From assembly GCF_002797375.1 (NCBI RefSeq), contig NZ_KZ454941.1:849910-900777 (forward strand): a DNA stretch of 50,868 bases, written 5' to 3'. Shown in pieces: positions 30,420-50,868 of this stretch (position 1 is the stretch's first letter; the number at the start of each line of letters is the position of its first letter). Under the pieces are notes generated by a model. The model was given only the letters and a program-made list of their open reading frames with translations, had not been told where the DNA came from and made no database searches. This DNA comes from Bacillus sp. FJAT-42315. GTDB lineage: Bacteria; Bacillota; Bacilli; Bacillales; Domibacillaceae. The translations under genes and the position numbers were made by a program.

Positions 30420-32099
30420 TTAATATTTAAATTGACTTACAGATTCTTGTAGCTCTATCGCCATATGCGCAAGCTCGTTCGCCGCTGCCGCTACTTCTTC
30501 CATCATCGCACTTTCTTCTTGAATCGCCGCTGCCACCGTTTGTGACTCGTCCGTGAATTCACCGGAAATGCTCACGATCGAGTTCGTGTCTTGAACGATG
30601 GATTGAATGTTTTCGTGCATATTGTGAATCGCCGTTGTTACATCATTTGCCTCAGCTTGCACGCGTTCCACCGCCTGCGAGATATCAGCGAAAGTCGCTC
30701 CAGTCACATCGACCATTTCTTTTCCTTTTTGCACCGAAGCGTTGTTGCTATCCATCTCTTGAACGACTTGGTCTGTGTGCGCCGTAATCGTATCGACAAG
30801 CGTATGAATCTCTTGAGCGGCATTTCCCGATTGCTCTGCTAACTTACGAACCTCTGACGCCACCACGGCAAACCCTTTTCCATGCTCTCCAGCACGAGCC
30901 GCTTCAATCGACGCATTCAAGGCAAGAAGGTTCGTTTGCTCGGCAATGTTTGAAATGATCGCCACCATCTCTGTGATGGTCGTTGATTTCGCCTTTAGCT
31001 CATGCAAGCTCGTTGTAATTTGATTCGTCTTCGTCAAAATCGTATCCATCTGTGCCGTCACATTGTTCGCAAAATCACGACCTTGATTCGCTTTTTCTGT
31101 CGCCAGATCCGTTTGCTCATTCACCGACTGGATCTTCGCTGAAATTTGATCCGTTTCATGAGCGACACTGTTCACTTGCTGACCTGTATGTTGTGTTTTA
31201 TCATTTTGCTTCTCGATCCCTGAAGAGATATTTTGAATCGCGCCCCCGATATCCACGGTTGCCTTACTCACTTCTTGACTGCTCGCCGTCAGCTGCTCGG
31301 CCGTCGCCGCCACTTGCTCCGCTGATGAGCTAATTTGATTCAGCGTATTCCCAAGCGTGCTCGTCATCTCATTCATCGAAGAAGCAAGCATCCCAAACTC
31401 ATCCCGAAGCTTCGTATTAAACGTCACCGTGAAATCTCCAGAGGCAAATTGCTTCACTTGCGAAATGATCTGCTGGATCGCTCTCGACACACCATTTCCA
31501 AACACAAACGCAAGAACCGCACCGACAATCAGACTGACAACAACAACAATAGTTGTCAAAATAAAAATGAAATCACCACTCGCATTCATCTGCTCGATTT
31601 CACTTACAATTTGCTTATCAATCTTTTTCGCATTATCCTTTGAAAAAACGACCAGCTTTTGCGAACCCTCTCCCAAAATTGGCGCCGACACCTTCAATGC
31701 TTCTGGTAGCTTATTCGCATCAATTAACGGCATCACCTGCTCATCAATCGCTTGCTCCCACGCCACAAAGTCCTTTTCAAACTGGACAAATTCCGCATTC
31801 GTCACACCTAATTCTTTCAACCGATCAATGGAAGCATGAACCTCCTTGCGAATCGAAAAATGATTCTCCTTCATAAAATCCTTCTTATAATTCATATATC
31901 CACGAATCGCCGCATTCGATCGAACCGTATGAAAGGCGATATCATTATAACCGACCATAATTTCTTCATTCTTCTTAATGTCTGACAGCATCTGGTTCGT
32001 CTTGACGATATGAGCAATACTAATCCCGCCAAGCACAACCAAAAAGCCCAGCATCACAACGAAAGCACCAAACAGCTTCGTCCGAATTCCTACCTTCAC
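30420..32099 (-). CDS. Methyl-accepting chemotaxis protein (intact copy)
   Basis: This 559-residue membrane chemoreceptor controls CheA. A first helix (about 8-30) and a second (about 178-205) enclose a four-helix-bundle-type sensor domain of about 150 residues. A HAMP domain (about 205-260) and the cytoplasmic signalling hairpin follow; the hairpin tip [28 protein letters not shown] is intact but longer than can be quoted as one unit of evidence. GGGGG lies 7 bases before the ATG. The ligand is unknown. The first 297 residues and the 90-base upstream region are nearly identical to the truncated copy at 40158-41192. Upstream, GTTACAATAGTAAC (32160-32173) is a short palindrome kept in both copies. 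Confidence 0.92.
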
Positions 32100-32308
32100 A
32101 TAAAGACCCCCTAACCTAATTTAAAAACCGACATAATAATTCCAAAAACCCCATACTTAGTTACAATAGTAACCTAATTACAAGGGGTTTACTAGTACAA
32201 AAGGCTTGAGAGATCTAACAAAGACCTTAACGAATTATTAATAAAATCTTAATACTAAATTTAAATAATTTAAACATTCAAGTACTAGAATGTATGTATA
32301 GATGTTGA

Positions 32309-39149: not shown

Positions 39150-40196
39150 TACTTTGTCAAATTAAGTGCAACAGTTCTTCCTCAAACGCCTCGTGTGCAG
39201 TTTTCCAGTCAAGACATTTTCTTGGCCGATTATTGATGAGTTGAAGCGCTTGCTCCATCTCTTGTTCTGTTACGTGGTCAAAATTAGTTTTCTTTGGGAA
39301 GAACTCACGTAAAAGACCATTGCTGTTTTCATTACTGCCACGTTGCCAAGATGAGTAGGCATCCGCAAAGTACACTTTGATGTTTAACTCCTGCTCGAGC
39401 ACGTTATAACAGCTGAATTCTTTCCCACGATCCGTTGTTGCTGTTTGAATAGCGCCTGGAGGTAATTGCTGGTGTAAAAGCTTCACAGCGGTTTCCATTG
39501 AAGCAGCGGAACGGTCTGAGATTAATACGCCGAAATACCAACGTGTTTTGCGCTCGATGAAAGTGGCGACACAACCTTTCGCTTGTCCACGTCCCGAGAC
39601 AACCGTATCGAGTTCCCAATGACCGAACGTCTCTCGTTTACGGACGTCTTTAGGTCGTTTTGAAATAGGTGTGCCAATATTAAAACGACCTCTTGTTTCA
39701 CGGGGCTTTTGACGTTTTCCCTTTTGACGAAGTATGGTTAAAGGTACCTCTAATAAGCCGTTATAAATCCAACGGTAAATGCTTTTAAAACTAAGCTCTC
39801 CTTGATATAAGCGACCGACAATTTGTTCGGGTGACCAAGTCTCACCCAACTTTTCTTGAACAACCTCTTTTAATTCGGCTGTTAACTTTAACTTAGCGCC
39901 ACATTTCGATTTATTTGATTGGTAGCGTGTTTGGGCTTCCTCTATCGAACAATTTTGATGGCGACGTAACTCTCTTGAAATGCTAGAAGGACTGCGATGA
40001 ATCTGTTTGGCAATGGCGCGAATCGAGTAGCCTAATTCAAGATAAGTTTCTATTTTCGAACGTTCAGATATGGTAAGATGAGTATAGCTCATAACGATTC
40101 CTCCTCTGATGCTTGTGTGGTAACTAACATTTTACACGAGGACGTTATGGGCTTCTTTTATTTTGACTTACAGGTGTTGCACTTAATATTACAATT
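39150..40196 (-). mobile_element. IS30-family insertion sequence
   Basis: An element of about 1.05 kb encodes one intact transposase. Imperfect terminal inverted repeats are visible: TTGTCAAATTAAGTGCAACA at 39154-39173 and the complement of TGTTGCACTTAATATTACAA at 40175-40194. The right end cuts a chemoreceptor gene. The left side is not the continuation of that gene, so sequence was lost next to the element. The exact ends and target duplication cannot be set from one copy. Confidence 0.85.
39157..40092 (-). CDS. IS30-family transposase
   Basis: This 311-residue DDE transposase is complete. The N-terminal helix-turn-helix reads LGYSIRAIAKQIHRSPSSIS. The catalytic acids are D in HWELDTVVSGRG, D in TTDRGKEFS and E in SNENSNGLLREFF. 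AGGAGGAAT lies before the ATG. The stop codon falls inside the left inverted repeat, which is normal for compact IS30 elements. Nothing suggests it is inactive. Confidence 0.93.
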   Translation of the reverse strand: MSYTHLTISERSKIETYLELGYSIRAIAKQIHRSPSSISRELRRHQNCSIEEAQTRYQSNKSKCGAKLKLTAELKEVVQEKLGETWSPEQIVGRLYQGELSFKSIYRWIYNGLLEVPLTILRQKGKRQKPRETRGRFNIGTPISKRPKDVRKRETFGHWELDTVVSGRGQAKGCVATFIERKTRWYFGVLISDRSAASMETAVKLLHQQLPPGAIQTATTDRGKEFSCYNVLEQELNIKVYFADAYSSWQRGSNENSNGLLREFFPKKTNFDHVTEQEMEQALQLINNRPRKCLDWKTAHEAFEEELLHLI

Positions 40197-41093
40197 CATC
40201 TTTTGCTTCTCGATCCCTGAAGAGATATTTTGAATCGCGCCCCCGATATCCACGGTTGCCTTACTCACTTCTTGACTGCTCGCCGTCAGCTGCTCGGCGG
40301 TCGCCGCTACTTGCTCCGCTGATGAGCTAATTTGATTCAGCGTATTCCCAAGCGTACTCGTCATCTCATTCATCGAAGAAGCAAGTAGCCCAAACTCATC
40401 CCGAAGCTTCGTATTAAACGTCACAGTGAAATCCCCAGAGGCAAATTGCTTCACTTGCGAAATGATCTGCTGAATCGCTCTCGACACACTATTTCCAAAC
40501 ACAAACGCAAGAACCGCACCGACAATCAGACTGACAACAACAATAGTTGTCAAAATAAAAATGAAATTACCACTCGCATTCATCTGCTCGATTTCACTTA
40601 CAATTTGCTTATCAATCTTTTTTGCATTATCCTTTGAAAAAACGACTAGCTTTTGCGAACCCTCTCCCAAAATCGGCGCCGACACCTTCAACGCCTCAGG
40701 CAATTTATTCGCATCAATTAACGGCATCACCTGCTCATCAATCGCCTGCTCCCACGCCACGAAGTCCTTTTCAAACTGTACAAACTCGGCATTCGTCACA
40801 CCTAATTCTTTCAACCGATCAATGGAAGCATGAACCTCCTTGCGAATCAAAAAATGATTCTCCTTCATAAAATCCTTCTTATAATTCATATATCCACGAA
40901 TCGCCGCATTCGATCGAACCGTATGAAAGGCGATATCATTATAACCGACCATAATTTCTTCATTCTTCTTAATGTCTGAAAGCATCTGGTTCGTCTTGAC
41001 GATATGAGCAATACTAATGCCGCCAAGCACAACCAAAAAGCCCAGCATCACAACGAAAGCACCAAACAGCTTCGTCCGAATTCCCACTTTCAC
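40158..41093 (-). pseudogene. Truncated chemoreceptor copy, cut by IS30
   Basis: The first 297 residues are nearly identical to the receptor at 30420-32099, with a handful of substitutions and one Val codon lost in the second membrane helix. At GIEKQ the gene runs into the IS30 end, which adds 14 foreign residues and a stop. The product would keep sensor, membrane and HAMP parts but lack the signalling hairpin. The homology continues upstream to about 41192. The missing 3' half is not found on the other side of the element. With the intact copy it forms direct repeats of about 1 kb around the phosphodiester cassette. Confidence 0.85.
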
Positions 41094-41355
41094 CTAAAGA
41101 CCTCCCAACCTCATTATAAAAAACTACATAATAATTCCAAAAAAACCATACTTAGTTACAATGGTAACCTAATTACAAGGGATTTACTAGTGTGAAAGTC
41201 CTGTCATTTCCTTGAGATTTCACAAAATTTGTCGATACATAAAATGAGTGGAAAATGAACGAAAATATCCAATAAAGGTCAGTGGGTATCTATTTTTTTA
41301 ACTACCTTTTCTGGTAAAATATTAGAAAATACTATTTGGAAAAGGAGTCGCTCTT

Positions 41356-41391
41356 ATGCCTACTTATAATAAACTGGTTTGTAGTTTTTGA
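41356..41391 (+). pseudogene. 5' remnant of a MazG/PRA-PH-like gene
   Basis: AAAAGGAG is followed by an ATG that opens with MPTYNKLV, the standard start of small MazG-like pyrophosphohydrolases (normally continuing RDKIPEI). After eight codons it diverges and stops within four more. The defence-island promoter begins at this point, so this is probably the junction at which the island replaced or entered the gene. Confidence 0.55.
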
Positions 41392-41416
41392 TCAAAGAGT
41401 AATGTATATATAATAT
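41388..41416 (+). promoter_or_regulatory. Likely promoter of the sspFGH-like operon
   Basis: TTGATC (41388-41393) is followed by overlapping -10 boxes, TATAAT (41409-41414) and TAATAT (41411-41416), with 15 and 17 bases between. Confidence 0.5.
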
Positions 41417-41493
41417 CGGAAATTAATACTGAGGAAACCAGAAAATAATTGAACTGAATTTATGACATTGTAAGTTAGTGAGGAGTGAAAGAG

Positions 41494-43224
41494 ATGGAAA
41501 AACAGATAAATCCATTTGTTACGTTCATGCAACAGTACGACTTGACTACTGCTGACTATTCAAAGATATTTGATGAACATACAACGACGGTAGAATATAA
41601 CATTGGCACAAATATAAATGAAAAAATTATAAGTATACTCCGAGATGCACCTAAGTCTATCATTATTACTGGAAATGCTGGAGATGGAAAAACAAGAATT
41701 TGTCGAAATGTATACGATGAATTGGCTTCTTCTGAATTCAAGGGATGGCCGTCAAATGGTATGGAAGAGTTTGAGTATAAAGATTACAAGATACGTATAA
41801 TTAAGGATTTATCGGAATTAAGAGATGAAGTAATTCTAGATGAACTTTTAAAATTGCAGAAGCTTCTTCAGAGTGAGCAACCTAATACTCATTATTTAAT
41901 TGCCGCAAATGAAGGTAAACTAACTTATTTTTTAACCAAATATAGCGAACTTAGCTTGTTACATGATGAAATCATTCCACAGTTTTCACCAATGAGTATT
42001 AATGTAAATAATAATAATTTGCAAGTTTTTAATTTATTGCATAGCTCTTCCTCTATTTATGCGCAGAAAATTGTAAAGGAATGGAATAGAGGAGAGAATT
42101 GGGAAATGTGTTCTAATTGTCTTAAACAAAACCAGTGCATTATTTATCATAATCACAAATCTTTAGTAGAGAAACGAACAGGTGTAAGGCTAAACCGGAT
42201 TTATCGTTCTCTTGATGGCAATCATGGTCATATGACTATGCGTGAATTACTGATTCAACTTGCTTATACACATACAGGTGGATTGCATTGCGTAGATGTT
42301 CATCGAGCAGATTCTCACGAGTTGCAAGAACAATCCAAAAAAGCCTATTATGAAAACTTTTTTGGGCATAATTTGCCGAATGAAATTTTCGAAGAAATTT
42401 CTGGTATACAAGAAATGAGAGCTTTTGACCCAGGGTATGTGTCTGATTCTGTTATTGATGATTTTATCTTAAATGGTGATTTATCATCTGCGGAAGAAAG
42501 TATTCTTCACCAAGATTTATTCGGAAAACATATTGATACAGAATATGGTTATTACTATGAGGAATTGAAAAAATATCGTTTGAATCATCGTTCTGATGAA
42601 GATGAAGGAAAAAAGCTAACTGAAAAATGGTTGCCTCGTTTGAGAAGGAAATATTATTTTGAGTTCAGTAAGCCGCAAGTAATTGAAAATTTAGTACCTT
42701 ACCGATATCGTAAGAAATTTTTAGACATATTAAAATCATCTGATGAGCTAGATCTTGATACAAAACGAGACTTGATTAGTGGGTTAAATACATACTTTTC
42801 AAAAAGAATGGTTTATTCTGCTTCTCATGCTTTATATGTAACTTCTGAAAACTTGTATGTTCACGAGATCATTAACTTCTCAGATATTACATTTATAGTT
42901 CCAAAAAGCTTAGAAGAATACGATCGTAAAAACTCTTATTTTATTATGAAAATCGGTGCGATTCAACTGAACATTAATTTAATTACATTTGAATATTTAC
43001 TACGCCTTGCTAACGGTGGAATGTTCAATGTGTTAAAAGAGGATGTGGAAATTCTCCTAAATAATTTCCGAAACCAACTAATTGCAAATAAAACGGAAGA
43101 AAGTTCGATATTGAGAATATTAAAGTTTAACAGTAACCTAGGAGCCTTTGAATTAAAAGAAATTCAAATTCAAACTGATCTAGGGGACTCTAGTCCTGAA
43201 GACGAAGAAGAAGATTTCGATTAA
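41494..43224 (+). CDS. P-loop ATPase of a phosphorothioation defence system (SspF/DptF-like)
   Basis: This 576-residue protein has a Walker A motif GNAGDGKT at residues 60-67, in the context SIIITGNAGDGKTRICRNV. A compact Cys/His cluster, C206-x2-C209-x5-C215 with H219 and H221, could bind zinc. The C-terminal part is helical and ends in an acidic tail. I recognise no enzyme domain beyond the NTPase. ATG at 41494 has GGAG 8 bases upstream. It is the first gene of a tight operon (14 bases to the next) leading to a very large FtsK-type protein and DUF4007. That order matches the restriction genes sspFGH or dptFGH; in that scheme this is F. The assignment rests on context, size and the P-loop. 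Confidence 0.6.
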   Translation: MEKQINPFVTFMQQYDLTTADYSKIFDEHTTTVEYNIGTNINEKIISILRDAPKSIIITGNAGDGKTRICRNVYDELASSEFKGWPSNGMEEFEYKDYKIRIIKDLSELRDEVILDELLKLQKLLQSEQPNTHYLIAANEGKLTYFLTKYSELSLLHDEIIPQFSPMSINVNNNNLQVFNLLHSSSSIYAQKIVKEWNRGENWEMCSNCLKQNQCIIYHNHKSLVEKRTGVRLNRIYRSLDGNHGHMTMRELLIQLAYTHTGGLHCVDVHRADSHELQEQSKKAYYENFFGHNLPNEIFEEISGIQEMRAFDPGYVSDSVIDDFILNGDLSSAEESILHQDLFGKHIDTEYGYYYEELKKYRLNHRSDEDEGKKLTEKWLPRLRRKYYFEFSKPQVIENLVPYRYRKKFLDILKSSDELDLDTKRDLISGLNTYFSKRMVYSASHALYVTSENLYVHEIINFSDITFIVPKSLEEYDRKNSYFIMKIGAIQLNINLITFEYLLRLANGGMFNVLKEDVEILLNNFRNQLIANKTEESSILRILKFNSNLGAFELKEIQIQTDLGDSSPEDEEEDFD

Positions 43225-43238
43225 GGGGTGTTATTTTG

Positions 43239-44918
43239 ATGGAGACAAAAAGTAAATCTCAATTTTCTAGTCAAATGTCTGAAAAAATTTGGGGGCATCG
43301 TTTTCGGGAAGGGCAGCGCGGTCCAGAGTATACTCTCGAATTTTTGAATGTAATGGCAGGAACCGACTATCAATTAGGACATAAATTTTATGAAAGAAAG
43401 AGAATGGAGCAATTTCGCTCATTCGTTTTTGAAGGCTCTAAAGAAGGTGCTAGAAGCAAAGATGGATCGGCTTCATTTGTATCCTTTGATGAGCATAAAA
43501 AACAGGAATTACTTCATGCTCTTGGCATCGATCATAGTGAGCTAGAAGATTTACAAATGTTTTTTAAAAATTTAAGTATTCAAATGACAACGCCTACCGG
43601 AAAATTACTAGATCGTTCTTGGTATGCGACTATGTTATTCCCTTTACATGAGTCTCTTTTATTTTTTGAATTAAGAGCAAATAAAAAAACAAATAAGACA
43701 GCTTTTGAACGTAACTTTTTTGCTAGAGGTGGGGAGTTATACTTCTTAATGCTTACTTATGGCACGGAGCACTCTCCTAAACTTCGTGAAGCAATTGAAA
43801 TGAAGTTGAAAAATATGATGCGTCAGAACAAAAGTGTTACCGGAGTAGTAGAACGAATTAGTTCTCAACTCGAAGATGATTATGAAATAGATTTAAATAA
43901 TCCCAAGAATCCTGCAACTTTAATTAAAGATCCTTCTTTAGATGGAATCATTTCAAATTACGAAAATCGAGAATATCCAAAACTTCCTGATATGGATTTA
44001 GAGTTATTTAAACACATGGCAGAAGAATTAAGAGCATTGCTTGAGTTAAATATTGACTTATATGAAATGTTTGGTTTAATGACTTCTCTTATTTGTTTTC
44101 AGTTGCATCGATATATGATTTATCAATCAGAGAGAGTGACTAAAGAAAGTAATTTTTATTTTATTGATTGTCTTGATGGACAAGATCCTCAAGTTAAACG
44201 ACTAGCACAGGACTCTTATCGTAGGCACGAAACATCTGTACGTGACAGTTTTGACAGTTTTACAAAAGAAAATTTAAAGACGTTGCTGCCACTAGGAGAG
44301 GAAATATCTAAACTAAGGCATTGGAAAGAAGCAGCTGAGCAATCAACTGAAACGAAGGATGTTGATAAATACAGCGCGTTCTTAAATGACATTGAGTTCG
44401 GTGCTGCACATGCAACGAAGAAGAACGCACTTATCAAGGCTCTTAAAAATAGCAATGAGGAGCAGGCTGTCAAACTATTAGAGCATAAAATTATTGAATT
44501 CTCACAGGATGAATTAAATAAAAAACAATTACCAATTGTTCGTACGGTTGCTCGTGATGGTGGATTTGTCACAATGGGACCTGGTGTTCGAGGAAGATAT
44601 ATAATGACAGATAACTTTCTATGTACGCTTGTATATGCCACTTTAGGAAAAGTAGAAAAAATGGACTTTCATGATTTTATGAGTGTTCTTTATGATAAGT
44701 ATAAAATTGTCATCGGCACAGAAGAGGCTAAAAAGTCAGGGTTATATGAACGTGAAGGAGTAAACTTACGTTACTTTCAACACAATGAAAATAAGCTAAG
44801 GCAAAAGTTGAAACAAAATGGATTGTTGCAAGAATATTCGGATGCGACAGCGCTTATTCGAAATCCATATATTAACAAAGGGGAGAGTAAATATGGACTC
44901 CACAACATTAATAGATAA
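43239..44918 (+). CDS. Unknown-fold subunit of the same system (SspG/DptG-like)
   Basis: This 559-residue protein, soluble and mostly helical, has no motif I recognise. It starts with MSEKIWGHRFREGQRGPEY, holds several Arg/Lys-rich stretches and ends with a possible winged-helix-like segment (DGGFVTMGPGVRGRYIMTDNF). ATG at 43239 is preferred, with AAGGGG 10 bases upstream; a TTG one codon earlier is possible. The 3' end overlaps the next gene by 26 bases, so translation is coupled and a complex is likely. By position it is the G subunit of an SspFGH- or DptFGH-type restriction module; it is longer than the DptG proteins I recall, so orthology is open. Confidence 0.5.
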   Translation: METKSKSQFSSQMSEKIWGHRFREGQRGPEYTLEFLNVMAGTDYQLGHKFYERKRMEQFRSFVFEGSKEGARSKDGSASFVSFDEHKKQELLHALGIDHSELEDLQMFFKNLSIQMTTPTGKLLDRSWYATMLFPLHESLLFFELRANKKTNKTAFERNFFARGGELYFLMLTYGTEHSPKLREAIEMKLKNMMRQNKSVTGVVERISSQLEDDYEIDLNNPKNPATLIKDPSLDGIISNYENREYPKLPDMDLELFKHMAEELRALLELNIDLYEMFGLMTSLICFQLHRYMIYQSERVTKESNFYFIDCLDGQDPQVKRLAQDSYRRHETSVRDSFDSFTKENLKTLLPLGEEISKLRHWKEAAEQSTETKDVDKYSAFLNDIEFGAAHATKKNALIKALKNSNEEQAVKLLEHKIIEFSQDELNKKQLPIVRTVARDGGFVTMGPGVRGRYIMTDNFLCTLVYATLGKVEKMDFHDFMSVLYDKYKIVIGTEEAKKSGLYEREGVNLRYFQHNENKLRQKLKQNGLLQEYSDATALIRNPYINKGESKYGLHNINR

Positions 44919-47900
44919 ACAATTTCTTCTTGGACATTGGATTACTGAATACATTAAGCAATATTTAGATGAAAATAAGAAAAGAAATGCAGATAAAGTT
45001 TTGTTGAAAGTTGACAATATTAGTTATGAATATGCACCGGCAATTTTGAAGATTATTAACTCATGCAAGGAATCGTTATCTGTAACATACGAGCCTGTTA
45101 TTAAAACGGTTAGCCCAATTGAAGGGTTTGAGCAGTTTTCATGCCGTGATTACGAAACGAGTGTGTGGTTGCGTAACTTTATCAAGCCAGGACAAGCTTT
45201 AATATTGTTATTAAATAAGAAAACCCCAGAATCTCAAAGTTTAAAAGATATTATTTCAATAGATGAGGCACAACTTTTAGCACCTAAAGGCTTTGAGGCA
45301 TTAGCTGAAATGATGACTCAACAAGATTTATTATCCGTCTCAGAAATTAATGAGCTTAGAAGGTTTTTAGATGTTTACCAAACGATTACTGACTCACAGT
45401 TATCGCTAATTTTAAATTTCTTAAAGTGTGTCATTCAATCTGATACAACCTTAATGATTTCAGAACGTATTGGAAGAAATTTAGACCAATTAAAAATGTT
45501 TAAAGATGAGTCGATACGTACAGATAATAAAGGGATTTTAAGAAAATCATTGCAAAAAAACTATCTTTTAAGTCATTTACGGAAAAGTAATGTCCATTAT
45601 CTTGATCCTGAAAAACTTTTACAGAGTGTAGATAGGTTTGTTCAACATGAACAGGATACAGGATATAATCATGAGGTTTGGGATATTTTCGGACGAGACG
45701 AGACAGAGTTGCTTAAAAAAGCCGCTGAATTTGTTCATAGAAAAAATACGGATCTGCTAGCAATTCCATTTTCTATTGCAGAGAAATTATTTGCATTTAA
45801 GTTGTCGATACCGTTCAAAGACCGATTAATGAATATGAGAGAGCAGGTATTAGTAGACTTTAATGAGAAAATTTCCAATGCTAGTTCAAAAGAAGAATCT
45901 GAACAATTAGCAAATGAAAAAATGAGAGTAGAAGAAGAACTTGATGCTGGAATTGAAGCGGTTATTGATAAAAATAGTTTAGAGAAGATACGTGAATTTA
46001 GAGAAGAATTTGGAGATCAAATAGATCGTGAAGGAATAGCAAGGTCTATTATTAACATTGAAAATAAACTAGAGAATCCCTCTAATTATGTATCTTTTTT
46101 AGATGGAGTGTTTGCTGAGATTCTTGTCATGCTAGAAAAAGTAGAGGAAGAAGATTACGAAGGGAATCTTTCTTTTGTTGTTCGTAAATCTTCAAAAGAA
46201 GCTGTACCGACAAAATATGTAGATTTTTTGAATTTCCATTTACAAGCTATTTCGCTTTTATCTAACAATATCATTATTGAGAAAATTAAAGAACAAGATA
46301 GTGACGCTAGTGTTGAGTTGAAAGACACTTTTTCATTTGAAATAGCGTTGCTACAGAATGAAAAGAAAATAGATTCTACTTTATTTCATGTAGATACTTT
46401 AGCTATGGAAATGGACAAGAATACTTTTTTTGATTTCTACTATGAAATATTAGAAAATAATAAGTTAGGCTTTGTTACGGTTGAAGGGTCGAAAAGAAAC
46501 GCGCACTTTTTTGAAGAAGAATTGCAAGAGCTAGAAGCTGCTAGCAAATTAGGCGATCAGAAGCTTCTCCCGCATATAGAAGAATTTCAACAGTTTAACC
46601 AAGTGTATATTCAATTATTGAAAGAGTTAATTGAATATGGGTTGAATGTATCTAGGTTAAAAGAAATATCGAATTTAGTTGATAACTATTTATCAGCGAT
46701 GTCTACAGAAGTGAATGCAGTTAGAAAAATTAGTGGACTCATTAATAAAATGGGTGTTGTTGAATATGAAGAAACAGAACAGCAAGCAGCTATCAAGCGT
46801 GTCCATAAAAAAGTTCTTTCCGTATTTAATCCAGCTCGTTTAGTTGCTTACGGGTACAAGTTAGTTCATTTCGGTCAGTTAATTTCAAAGTTGTGTGATA
46901 CTTCTAATGGAATGAATCCGGTAAGATCAATTGAAGATATTCAGAGATATCGACTGTTTGAAAACAGTAAAATGAATAAACTAGCTCCAGCTTACTTAGC
47001 TTCAGGTCATCAAAATATCTATTATTTTGAACAAGAAGAGTCATACGGTCAAGGGGTTTATGTCACAGAAGAGTATAAAGAGAGTGATTCTAATCAAGCT
47101 ACTTACTTTGCAGAAGAAATGATGAAGATTTCTAAAGATTATTTGAAGGTGTATCCGTATGCTTCAGACTGTCTTGATATTTTATTTTTGTATGTAACAA
47201 ATTTAGATTATGTGAAGAAGTCTATTGAGGCCCTTCTGAAAAAGCATACGATCAAAAAGTTAAATGTCACGCTTCATAGTCCAGCGAAAGCTGCGGTGTT
47301 ATATGATGAGTTAAACCAGTGGCTTAGTGCTAAAGAAGAGTATGTAACGCCATTACCGCTACTCGGCGGGTTACCAAGATTGGAAATTAACGTGTTACCA
47401 CATCATTCAGAAGAGAATTTAGAACGCAAAATATCTAAAGCAATGATGGATTTTGATATAGCTATTTTTGTGGATTATTTTGGGCAAAAAAGTAATTTAA
47501 ATGTACCGAAATCTTTTTATCCTGTTCAGATGAAAGAGTGTGCGTTAGAGGATGAAATTTGGAAAAAAGTTGATGAGACAGGTTATCGATCTTCACAAGA
47601 AGGTACAAGACTAATTAATTATGTGTCTGATACACAACCAAGTTTATACCGAAAGTTTTATGACCTACAGTATATTCTTCAGCAAGGCGTTGCTATTCAG
47701 CAAAAAGATACCACCAATATCTTGCGTGGAGAAATTCAAGTGACATTTACAGAAAGAAATGCTCTATATAATCTAGTTCATGAAAAATTTAATTGGGTGG
47801 TAACATATGATCGCTACATGGACCCGCAACTAGTTAATCAAGTGACAAATAAGGCTAATATTATTCGTTACCACATTGATCGTAAAGGAAAAGATGAAGT

Positions 47901-50121
47901 GAAAGTGTTAGTTTCATCGTCAGAATCTGTCAAGCGATATATAGATAAAGAGGACAATTACTATTATCATGAACGTTTATCTAATCGCTTAAAACATCTT
48001 TTAGCGATTGACATAATTGATGAAGGTGTAATAAGAGATATTATCCATCGAGTAAAGGAGTTATCCGGTAGTTCAGTTTTACGTTCACTTGGACCAGGTA
48101 AATTTGTTCATGAACTACTTTCGATTTATTTAACCATCGCTAAAGATAATAGTCATAAGGATAATGAAGTGATATTATGGAGTATTTGTGATGAGTTGGA
48201 ATGGTTCAGGAAAAACCAAAAGCGACCAGATCTACTTAAACTTGTGATTCGCTATTCCCCTGATGAAAAGAAATATGATATTGTATTTAAGCTAATTGAA
48301 TTGAAGTTAGTGCACTACAATTCATATGAATCAGAGGTCGCAGATGCAGCTAAGCAACTTATCAGTGGAGAGAAAACGTTAAAGCAATTTTTTGAGTTTG
48401 ATTCGGCAGCTGTTGATAAGGAACTTCGTTTGCAAACGTTGATCACGTATTTAATGGATACGAGAGCATACAGCGAAAGAGAGATTTCTATTCTATCGCA
48501 GTTAAAAAATGATCCACAGTTTAATATAGAGTTTCACTTTGAAAAAGAAATTAATGCTTATATTTATTCACAAGATGTACAATTTGATGGTAAGCAGATG
48601 GTTGAACTAGGTTTCTATCAAGATCATTCTGATTTCGATGAGGTAATAACAAAAACGTTTACTCGATCATTTATTTTAAATTCTTTAAAAGTGGAGAATA
48701 AAGTAACAGCAGATAGTGAAATTACTGAAACTGAAGAAATGACTCCTTTTGAACAATTTCTCTTAGATCAAGATATCATTAAAGAAAGAGAAGAAGGAAA
48801 AGAGTACGGAAAAAGCAGTGAAGAAGAGCCGAGTTCTGTTGTTTTAGATGATCAAGATCCGTCTGGAGTTATTAGTGATGTGGAAGAAAAAAAGGAGAAG
48901 CAAGAGATAGATTCCCTGCAGGGCTTAGACGATGAATCTAATGTAGAGCCACTACTCATTTCTAGTGATTATCCAGAGTTAGAAGCTTTAAAAGATATTG
49001 TTAGACCTGAGAGTGATCAGGAAAAACAGAAGGAAGATGAAGAACTCGGTAAAAGATATGGAAACATTTTGAGATCGAAGTTTAATATTAATGGTATTAA
49101 ACTAATGATAGAACAGACGATTGTTGGGGCAAATGTGATTAGGATTATTGCTAGTATTCCTCCTAATCAAAGTTTTGAATCCATTCGAAAGAAAGCTCAA
49201 GATATGGCGTTATGGCTTCATGTAGATTCAGTACCGAAAGTATTTATTGATAAGAATATAGTGATTGACATCAATCGTCCAGAGCCGGAAACTATTTTCT
49301 TTGACCAGTTTATGAAATTAGTTCGTGAGCAAGTGTCAGAGGCTCGTTTAAATGAAGAGTTTGTTGTACCCATTGGTCTAGATCCATTAAATGCTGTTAT
49401 GACAGTAGATTTCAATGGAACTGAGCCGCATATGCTTGTAGCAGGTTCTACAGGAAGTGGAAAGAGTGTAAGTTTAAATTCCATTGTGTTCTCAATGATG
49501 TGTCTTTATAAGCCAAAAGACCTTCAATTTGTTTTTATTGATCCGAAAAAAGTTGAATTTACTGCATTTACAGATACGATGCATACTAGACATGTGGCAA
49601 CAGAAATTAATAGTGCAGCGGATTATCTAGATGAATTAGTGGAAGAAATGGAACATCGCTATACATTACTAAGTAAAGAATATGCTAAAAACTTAAAAGA
49701 ATATAATGAGATTTTAAAATCAGAGGGTAGAGAGAATGAAACTTTACCACGAATTGTAATTGTATTTGATGAGTTTGCAGATTTTATGTTACAGGAAAAA
49801 GAATTTGCTAAGCGTATTGAAAATACTATTGCTCGTATTGGACAAAAAGGAAGAGCAGCAGGTTTGCATATGATTGTTTGTACTCAGTCACCTAAAGCCG
49901 AGATTATTAATACGACGATCAAGAACAACCTTTTAGCTCGACTAGGCTTAAAAGTAACAGATAGTACAGCCTCAAACGTAGTATTAGACACTAGTGGGGC
50001 AGAACATTTAGCTGGTAAAGGAGATTACTTGTTAAAGGCAGGTAGTGAACCAGTTCGTGGGAAAAGTCCTTACCTTCAACCCACAGCTTATAGAGCGTTA
50101 ATGAAGTATTTTGAAAAATAA
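44893..50121 (+). CDS. 1742-residue FtsK/HerA-motor restriction protein (SspH/DptH-like)
   Basis: This giant protein has a C-terminal ATP-driven DNA-translocase motor at about 1470-1742. Walker A is GSTGSGKS (1518-1525), Walker B is IVIVFDEF (1621-1628), and the FtsK-type IDPKKVEF and RAAGLHMIVCTQSP motifs are present. A low-complexity acidic linker (about 1290-1400) separates it from 1290 residues of unassigned, largely helical sequence. No FtsK membrane helices and no gamma domain are seen, so it is not a chromosome-segregation FtsK. ATG at 44893 has GGGGAG upstream; the frame extends to 44818 inside the previous gene. Size and motor match DptH/SspH, which with F and G damage DNA lacking phosphorothioates. 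A nuclease motif was not identified. A hairpin follows the stop. Confidence 0.65.
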   Translation: MDSTTLIDKQFLLGHWITEYIKQYLDENKKRNADKVLLKVDNISYEYAPAILKIINSCKESLSVTYEPVIKTVSPIEGFEQFSCRDYETSVWLRNFIKPGQALILLLNKKTPESQSLKDIISIDEAQLLAPKGFEALAEMMTQQDLLSVSEINELRRFLDVYQTITDSQLSLILNFLKCVIQSDTTLMISERIGRNLDQLKMFKDESIRTDNKGILRKSLQKNYLLSHLRKSNVHYLDPEKLLQSVDRFVQHEQDTGYNHEVWDIFGRDETELLKKAAEFVHRKNTDLLAIPFSIAEKLFAFKLSIPFKDRLMNMREQVLVDFNEKISNASSKEESEQLANEKMRVEEELDAGIEAVIDKNSLEKIREFREEFGDQIDREGIARSIINIENKLENPSNYVSFLDGVFAEILVMLEKVEEEDYEGNLSFVVRKSSKEAVPTKYVDFLNFHLQAISLLSNNIIIEKIKEQDSDASVELKDTFSFEIALLQNEKKIDSTLFHVDTLAMEMDKNTFFDFYYEILENNKLGFVTVEGSKRNAHFFEEELQELEAASKLGDQKLLPHIEEFQQFNQVYIQLLKELIEYGLNVSRLKEISNLVDNYLSAMSTEVNAVRKISGLINKMGVVEYEETEQQAAIKRVHKKVLSVFNPARLVAYGYKLVHFGQLISKLCDTSNGMNPVRSIEDIQRYRLFENSKMNKLAPAYLASGHQNIYYFEQEESYGQGVYVTEEYKESDSNQATYFAEEMMKISKDYLKVYPYASDCLDILFLYVTNLDYVKKSIEALLKKHTIKKLNVTLHSPAKAAVLYDELNQWLSAKEEYVTPLPLLGGLPRLEINVLPHHSEENLERKISKAMMDFDIAIFVDYFGQKSNLNVPKSFYPVQMKECALEDEIWKKVDETGYRSSQEGTRLINYVSDTQPSLYRKFYDLQYILQQGVAIQQKDTTNILRGEIQVTFTERNALYNLVHEKFNWVVTYDRYMDPQLVNQVTNKANIIRYHIDRKGKDEVKVLVSSSESVKRYIDKEDNYYYHERLSNRLKHLLAIDIIDEGVIRDIIHRVKELSGSSVLRSLGPGKFVHELLSIYLTIAKDNSHKDNEVILWSICDELEWFRKNQKRPDLLKLVIRYSPDEKKYDIVFKLIELKLVHYNSYESEVADAAKQLISGEKTLKQFFEFDSAAVDKELRLQTLITYLMDTRAYSEREISILSQLKNDPQFNIEFHFEKEINAYIYSQDVQFDGKQMVELGFYQDHSDFDEVITKTFTRSFILNSLKVENKVTADSEITETEEMTPFEQFLLDQDIIKEREEGKEYGKSSEEEPSSVVLDDQDPSGVISDVEEKKEKQEIDSLQGLDDESNVEPLLISSDYPELEALKDIVRPESDQEKQKEDEELGKRYGNILRSKFNINGIKLMIEQTIVGANVIRIIASIPPNQSFESIRKKAQDMALWLHVDSVPKVFIDKNIVIDINRPEPETIFFDQFMKLVREQVSEARLNEEFVVPIGLDPLNAVMTVDFNGTEPHMLVAGSTGSGKSVSLNSIVFSMMCLYKPKDLQFVFIDPKKVEFTAFTDTMHTRHVATEINSAADYLDELVEEMEHRYTLLSKEYAKNLKEYNEILKSEGRENETLPRIVIVFDEFADFMLQEKEFAKRIENTIARIGQKGRAAGLHMIVCTQSPKAEIINTTIKNNLLARLGLKVTDSTASNVVLDTSGAEHLAGKGDYLLKAGSEPVRGKSPYLQPTAYRALMKYFEK

Positions 50122-50122
50122 A

Positions 50123-50155
50123 GAATTAGCCTCATAATTGAGGCTAATTCATTTT
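50123..50155 (+). terminator. Hairpin between the H gene and the DUF4007 gene
   Basis: GAATTAGCCTCA (50123-50134) pairs perfectly with TGAGGCTAATTC (50139-50150) around TAAT, followed by ATTTTAATT. It may uncouple restriction from modification genes, or reduce expression of the latter. Confidence 0.7.
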
Positions 50156-50180
50156 AATTGAGAAGTTAGGTGATAAAGAA

Positions 50181-50868
50181 ATGGGATTTGGACAACATCA
50201 AAGTTTTTATTTGCGTCCTCAATGGCTGCATAAAGGTATGTATGAGGTTAATTTAAATCCTCGTTTTTTTTACGAAGATGACCATTTTGAACGTTTAGGC
50301 ATTGGGAAAAACATGGCTAAATCAGTTCGGCATTGGATGATTGCAACCAATGTTGTGAAAGATGTACGAGGAGCCAAAACGGAACAATATTTAACGGAAA
50401 TGGGTAAAATAGTTGAAAGGTATGATCCTTTTCTTCAGAAAACGTTTACTAAAGGACTGTTACATTATTTTTTAGTTACTGATGAGGACATTGCAACAAC
50501 CTGGTATTGGTTTTTTAATTCTTATAAGGAAGATGTGTTTGATAAAACAAGCGTGTTAGAAGCGTTAGAAAATTGGGTGAAAACGAACATCAAGAGATCA
50601 GTATCAACCAACTCTTTGCGCAGGGATATAGATTGTTTGTTTCAAACATATACTATAAAAAGATTTGAAAATGCAACTCCTGAAGACGTTATTCGAAGTC
50701 CTTTTGAAGAATTAGGCTTGTTAACTCAAACCATTAGAAGTTCATACACGAAAATGCCACTAGTTGATTGTAATCATTTTGAACTGTTTTTTGTCACGTT
50801 GTTGGCTTATATGCACAAGCATAATGTGTTTGAAGTAGATATAAATGATTTGACTAATGCTCCTGAAT
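50181..50868 (+). CDS. DUF4007-family protein, SspB-like (cut by window end)
   Basis: The frame is open from ATG 50181 (AGGTGA 7 bases upstream) to the last base, 229 residues seen. The N-terminus carries the DUF4007 pattern: FGQHQSFYLRPQWLHKG, then RFFYEDDHFERLGIGKNM and SVRHWMIA. DUF4007 proteins occur with PAPS-reductase-like (DndC/SspD) and ATPase genes; SspB, the nickase that starts single-strand phosphorothioation, is to my knowledge of this family. Its place after an FGH-like module therefore points to an sspBCD modification set continuing outside the window. The catalytic residues cannot be judged from this part. Confidence 0.7.
   Translation, partial: MGFGQHQSFYLRPQWLHKGMYEVNLNPRFFYEDDHFERLGIGKNMAKSVRHWMIATNVVKDVRGAKTEQYLTEMGKIVERYDPFLQKTFTKGLLHYFLVTDEDIATTWYWFFNSYKEDVFDKTSVLEALENWVKTNIKRSVSTNSLRRDIDCLFQTYTIKRFENATPEDVIRSPFEELGLLTQTIRSSYTKMPLVDCNHFELFFVTLLAYMHKHNVFEVDINDLTNAPE

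Follow-up and report, generated by a model that had tools for sequence, protein, structure and literature searches.

The right end of a 50,868-nucleotide stretch of the genome of Bacillus sp. FJAT-42315 (G000:C1:849910-900777, hereafter the window) raises the question of which defence system is encoded there and which of its proteins would cut DNA. According to our analysis, it holds an SspBCD-SspFGH phosphorothioate restriction-modification locus with a predicted PD-(D/E)XK nuclease in SspH, a reading to which we assign a probability of roughly 0.85. The locus belongs to a published system (Wang 2021, PMC8092258) and is not a new one; what is new here is a testable nuclease candidate, a kinship with DndFGH at the profile level, and evidence of module exchange.

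Assignment of the locus to the Ssp system

Four co-directional genes occupy positions 41485-50868 and were read as sspF, sspG, sspH and sspB from the map of open reading frames (ORFs) and PADLOC profiles (Table 1). An earlier reading made from the letters alone (the sequence-only reading) had seen in them a tight operon of a P-loop protein with a Cys/His cluster, a 559-residue protein, a 1742-residue protein with an FtsK/HerA motor and, last, a DUF4007 gene, and had taken the whole for an sspFGH-sspBCD locus with the restriction genes first. This description holds throughout: sspF and sspG are 11 bp apart, sspG and sspH overlap by 26 bp, and sspB follows sspH after 59 bp; the Cys/His stretch of the 579-amino-acid (aa) SspF was found (CSNCLKQNQCIIYHNH), SspG has 560 aa (559 aa counted from the second codon), and the profiles of SspF, SspG, SspH, SspB, SspC and SspD all match. 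The strengths of the PADLOC and Pfam matches of the four genes show that they are not due to chance. Past the window end, in the downstream stretch of the host genome (locus L004), lie sspC and then the PAPS-reductase-like sspD, the latter about 4 kb downstream on the opposite strand, so that the refutation envisaged by the sequence-only reading, the absence of a sulfur-transfer gene within 10 kb, does not apply.

The features that place the locus in the Ssp system are adjacent sspF, sspG and sspH, adjacent sspB and sspC (sspB being split by a scaffold gap), and sspD. As in V. anguillarum FF-93 SspABCD-SspFGH, a Walker A SspF, an SspG and an SspH with an FtsK/SpoIIIE-like C-terminus are found beside sspBCD (PMC8092258). 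FF-93, compared by description only, differs from the present locus, where sspFGH precede the marking genes, sspC and sspD point towards each other, and the host belongs to the Bacillota. That the locus instead belongs to Dnd (DptFGH) or to BREX type 4 appears scarcely credible. It is true that SspF and SspH align with DndF and DndH, and that BREX type 4 likewise has DUF4007, an ATPase of the BrxC/SspC kind and a PAPS reductase (PMC12839542), which both speak against an Ssp assignment. However, the best PADLOC match of all six genes is Ssp, and the DndH model (PDLC02684) finds no match in the host genome at E <= 1e-100 and none for the window SspH at E <= 0.1. The profile homology of SspF and SspH with their Dnd counterparts indicates kinship, not Dnd membership. 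DndFGH is paired with Dnd double-strand marking, and BREX type 4 has PglZ and BrxL where the present locus has an FGH module (no profile search for PglZ or BrxL was made).

The window ends inside sspB, since a 10-N scaffold gap (L004:779-788) starts right after position 50868; sspB resumes beyond it. The assembly contains two partial DUF4007 frames with 10 N between them, which counts against a functional locus: were sspB truly duplicated or broken at the gap, no mark would be made and the locus would be inactive. We consider this very unlikely. Both sides of the gap carry 597 bp that are 100% identical, as overlapping contig ends would give, and because these flank a 10-N spacer, the repeat probably represents two overlapping contig ends and not a real duplication. 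The frames of sspF, sspG, sspH, sspC and sspD are all open. Moreover, SspFGH is toxic in E. coli when the mark is absent (PMC8092258), so that selection should act against losing sspB while FGH is intact.

Table 1. Features of the ssp locus in the window and in the adjoining downstream stretch (L004).
Feature	Position	Strand	Description	Profile match (E-value)
sspF	41485-43224	+	P-loop NTPase with Cys pair, DndF-like restriction subunit; GTG start; 579 aa	SspF 4e-220
sspG	43236-44918	+	DndG-like subunit; 560 aa	SspG 6.3e-154
sspH	44893-50121	+	predicted nuclease-translocase subunit; 1742 aa from ATG at 44893; ORF open from 44818	SspH 5.6e-93
sspH residues 728-1012	47074-47928	+	class I methyltransferase-like Rossmann domain	
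sspH residues about 1071-1210	48103-48522	+	predicted PD-(D/E)XK nuclease	
sspH nuclease residue codons	D1113 48229-48231; E1136 48298-48300; K1138 48304-48306; Q1155 48355-48357	+		
sspH residues 1489-1667	49357-49893	+	FtsK/SpoIIIE-type DNA translocase motor	FtsK_SpoIIIE (PF01580, Pfam) 4.5e-44
sspB (DUF4007), first piece	50181-50868	+	ORF runs past window end	PF13182 1.2e-56; SspB 7.3e-49
sspC	L004:1561-4914 (51651-55004 in extended window numbering)	+		SspC 1.3e-91
sspD	L004:4952-5836 (55042-55926 in extended window numbering)	-		SspD 3.1e-11

A predicted nuclease in SspH

No nuclease is named among F, G and H in the available parts of Wang 2021 (PMC8092258), and we found no assignment of one to SspH in the literature searched, which covered few subscription journals or preprints. 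The sequence-only reading had left SspH unassigned ahead of its motor. This still applies to the first 560 residues or so, which also lie outside the homology shown with DndH, whereas residues 728-1012 and about 1071-1210 could be placed. The former have a methyltransferase-like fold according to a structural comparison of the SspH model, and this domain is probably inactive. The latter are probably a PD-(D/E)XK nuclease, judging by sequence and structure model, with SspH as the subunit that cuts.

Nucleases of the PD-(D/E)XK type are recognized by a D, an ExK and a Q located in a helix, with the elements ordered alpha-beta-beta-beta-alpha. The SspH region has these residues in this order, and the structure model displays the corresponding succession of helix, three strands and helix. 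E1136, K1138 and Q1155 are kept in 49/49 homologues and D1113 in 48/49. These counts come from a profile-guided alignment, used in place of a first MAFFT alignment that was poorly in register in this region (80% was reached by D977 and P1068 only). From 57 loci, L004 (which overlaps the window's own copy) and the duplicates L046, L051, L057 and L058 were removed, leaving 52, and three more (L023, L072 and L075) gave no nuclease match, being a decayed copy or cut by contig ends. The SspH set lies in register with the D/ExK/Q of DndH, which is itself present in 17/17 DndH sequences, and the two families align in a profile-profile comparison (hhalign) with an E-value of 4.2e-9; the DndH profile comprises 17 loci out of 21, the other four having been left out because their frames are shorter than 1600 aa.

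Alternatively, the D-ExK-Q set might be structural, with SspG or a host nuclease doing the cutting, which we regard as improbable. Several points favour this alternative over a nuclease in SspH: the nuclease is a prediction from sequence and a structure model, no nuclease chain appears among the matches listed for the SspH model, where the methyltransferase-like domain accounts for the rows, and no enzymatic fold was assigned to SspG. A PDB sequence search gave no match for the nuclease region and, for the whole of SspH, 12 matches at chance level (E 0.19 or worse). Against it stands the invariance of E, K and Q in SspH and of the same set in DndH, and DndH has a restriction endonuclease (REase) domain with all key residues in the same place, between the methyltransferase-like and motor domains (PMC10853773). 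The residues named make the SspFGH nuclease question testable by three point mutants. An adenylate-cyclase-type domain in SspH was rejected, its Pfam matches (0.06 and 0.011) lying below the cut-off and falling in predicted helices. In L036, L054 and L056, SspH is broken into several ORFs.

Kinship of SspF and fold similarity of SspG with the Dnd restriction proteins

SspFGH and DndFGH have been described as lacking sequence homology (Wang 2021, PMC8092258), and a 2025 review refers to them in a passing remark as homologues (PMC12707154). For SspF, the kinship emerges from profiles: SspF and DndF align (hhalign) with an E-value of 4.1e-12 over 501 columns, as compared with 0.49 for a reversed control. 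When SspF and DptF are compared as single sequences, the P-loop alone aligns (8.5e-5). The GxAGDGKT motif, K107-D108, N142, C212 and C218 are unchanged in all 21 SspF sequences aligned, and N142 occupies the presumed Walker B position, as described for DndF (PMC10853773). In two Exiguobacterium genomes, the SspF frames (L028:7560-9962, L029:7581-9962) span about 800 aa when counted from the earliest possible start, so that these two proteins perhaps have about 220 additional aa at the N-terminus.

SspG resembles DndG at the level of the fold, and by this measure the G subunit has the DndG fold. Unlike for SspF and DndF, the relation was not settled by multi-sequence profiles (17 DndG frames, of which one under 350 aa was dropped), and SspG and DptG as single sequences align weakly (0.13). 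The sequence-only reading was right that SspG is the longer protein: its 560 aa compare with 453-497 aa for 16/17 DndG frames measured from stop to stop (the remaining frame being cut at 247), a difference of about 60-110 aa. The suggestion that this length marks a variant did not stand, because the window SspG matches the PADLOC SspG model (533 positions) over positions 2-532. By analogy with DndG, SspG is probably DNA-binding. A PDB sequence search with SspG gave no match, and its sole Pfam match, to a JmjC hydroxylase, was rejected as lying below the cut-off (E 0.038).

Marking genes, motor types and module exchange

SspF (model PDLC02796) was found in 6/101 relatives searched, including the window genome, and in 0/14 control genomes. 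Among 50 relatives of the locus, the SspH motor is of the FtsK type in 28, of the HerA type in 18 and unclassified in four. sspD accompanies 27/28 FtsK-type relatives (26 by profile, L037 by tblastn), L054 being without it. In the window genome it is a 294-aa PP-loop/PAPS-reductase gene on the opposite strand, 37 bp beyond sspC, whose PAPS_reduct match (21.5 bits) falls just under the cut-off of 22.5. This orientation recurs in five of the 27 (L021, L027, L028, L029 and L033), and in the other 22 sspD follows sspC on the same strand. The SGGA PP-loop is present in 25/27 sspD frames (the remaining two are truncated), and the conserved cysteines are carried as well. SspD is also the most conserved protein of the locus, with a median identity to the window copy of 78% (n=26, range 70-87), compared with 39% for F, 41% for G and 33% for H (n=28 each) and 37% for B and 31% for C (n=27 each). 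Across these loci SspD keeps 70-87% identity, against 27-60% for the other five proteins. These values refer to the aligned part in 28 FtsK-type rows, after removal of the own and duplicate rows, since the fetched stretch stops within the gene in many D rows and in some of the others. Because of this co-occurrence, the PP-loop and cysteines, and the top conservation, the inverted PAPS-reductase-like gene is, on the evidence of sequence, sspD. The sole PDB sequence relative of SspD at E 0.1 is the chain PptA (entry 21fy, 1.4e-17), for which no role was found under that name in the papers listed; SspC had no match in the PDB sequence search.

No sspA was seen beside the locus. The host genome yields 25 Aminotran_5 matches, and three of the five best hits bear cysteine motifs that we take to be SufS- or IscS-like. 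In 11 HerA-type relatives a cysteine desulfurase-like gene (judged by eye) lies between sspC and sspF; three of the encoded proteins, compared with the eight best hits of the window genome, are all closest to the SufS-like one (28-32% identity). IscS can stand in for the cysteine desulfurase of the Ssp system (Wang 2021, PMC8092258).

HerA-type loci have further distinguishing genes. An extra DUF4007-like gene and an AAA protein of about 1400 aa follow sspH in 16/18 of them (for example L022:3411-8508 and L024:13818-18971), compared with 0/28 FtsK-type loci. The two HerA-type loci without this pair are L074, where the contig ends soon after sspH, and L060, where it does not. In the fetched stretches of the 18 HerA-type loci the D profile found nothing. 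Past the end of L024, in L077, D is present, and the clostridial HerA-type loci holding B were fetched to no more than about 1.4-2.7 kb upstream of that gene. A PADLOC DndH match on the HerA-type SspH of L024 (5e-86, residues 1122-1718) was set aside as reflecting mainly a shared motor; against plasmids, the best match of this protein covers residues 1370-1744 only.

Among the loci compared, B, C and D of the window genome match best those of G017, a HerA-type locus (68%, 63% and 89%), where D is likewise inverted. The F, G and H proteins of G017 are 23-29% identical to those of the window over the aligned parts. In an SspC tree of 42 rows the G017 locus pairs with the window locus with a support of 92/98, which narrowly misses the starred level, and the HerA-type L022 pairs with the FtsK-type L043 (100/100). 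With L063 set to HerA by hand, the motor label has to change three times or more along the tree to satisfy its starred branches. From the G017 matches and this tree we infer that marking (BCD) and attack (FGH) modules are exchanged. The pairing of related BCD modules with two motor types offers a natural experiment on which components recognize the mark. In G025 (L023:4541-8791) a decayed copy was observed, of which part of SspF, interrupted by two in-frame stops, and a C-terminal piece of SspD are left.

Proposed mechanism and relation to other restriction machines

We posit that a cysteine desulfurase encoded elsewhere would pass sulfur to SspD, and that SspB, by site recognition and nicking, and the ATPase SspC would put it into one strand of the host DNA. 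SspF, SspG and SspH would assemble as a DndFGH-like complex in which the FtsK motor of SspH would track along DNA, SspG may help to read it, by analogy with DndG (PMC10853773), and SspF would probably act as a nucleotide-dependent switch, by analogy with DndF (PMC10853773). The SspH nuclease (D1113, E1136, K1138) would then cut or nick DNA without the mark. For an Ssp system, the sulfur would be expected in one strand within a short motif, CCA for example, and the FGH proteins would be expected to damage DNA that lacks it and to block phage. For DndFGH, translocation-coupled nicking has been reported, together with an ATPase that is repressed by the mark (PMC11662687).

The order in H of methyltransferase-like domain, REase and HerA/FtsK motor, the P-loop F and the G of the DndG fold are shared with DndFGH/DptFGH (Rakesh et al. 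2024, PMC10853773); the words SspF and SspH are absent from the available text of that paper and of PMC12839542. Similarities extend to MADS, which differs in that NCBIfam names MAD7 and MAD8 methylation-associated. SspG matches the MAD7 model under the cut-off (3.5e-6) and DptG matches it at 1.7e-16, and the SspH motor matches MAD8 at 2.8e-25, in the motor region only (1517-1730, ORF numbering). On balance we lean towards a joint view in which SspFGH, DndFGH and MAD7/MAD8 may be lineages of a single restriction machine for which the type of DNA mark does not matter. Its parts would be a P-loop switch resembling DndF, a reader with the DndG fold, and a third protein that joins an inactive methyltransferase and a PD-(D/E)XK nuclease to a motor, FtsK or HerA, that can be swapped. 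The Ssp branch would include HerA versions with their own second DUF4007-AAA pair, and closely related BCD modules shuffled between motor types. If SspFGH and DndFGH are indeed the same machine, what has been found for DndFGH can be carried over to SspFGH as direct predictions.

Chromosomal site and neighbouring genes

A congener (G003) carries a cassette whose F, G, H, B and C proteins are 47-56% identical to those of the window genome and whose D is 82% identical, between flanks that are about 90-95% identical in DNA. The right flank is present in 4/5 genomes of the genus. In another congener (G001) the same right flank (86%) adjoins helicase-like and DUF262-like proteins (by eye; L120:6458-10689) instead of ssp genes. 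The site may be a defence hotspot. Past sspD, the ORFs are of ordinary look (judged by eye, without a family scan). DUF262 proteins are also encoded elsewhere in the host genome (L113:529-2274, L114:1429-2538); they were rejected as SspE, as they match HEC-05 (4.9e-235) and NsnA (2.9e-62) best and SspE weakly.

Upstream of sspF (window 39154-41114) lies an integrase-core transposase gene, IS30-like by eye (39157-40092), with imperfect terminal repeats (39154-39186 and 40162-40194). It abuts a copy of a chemotaxis receptor that matches residues 1-305 only. A full copy of this receptor is located at 30423-32120, and in G003 the copy beside sspF is of full length.
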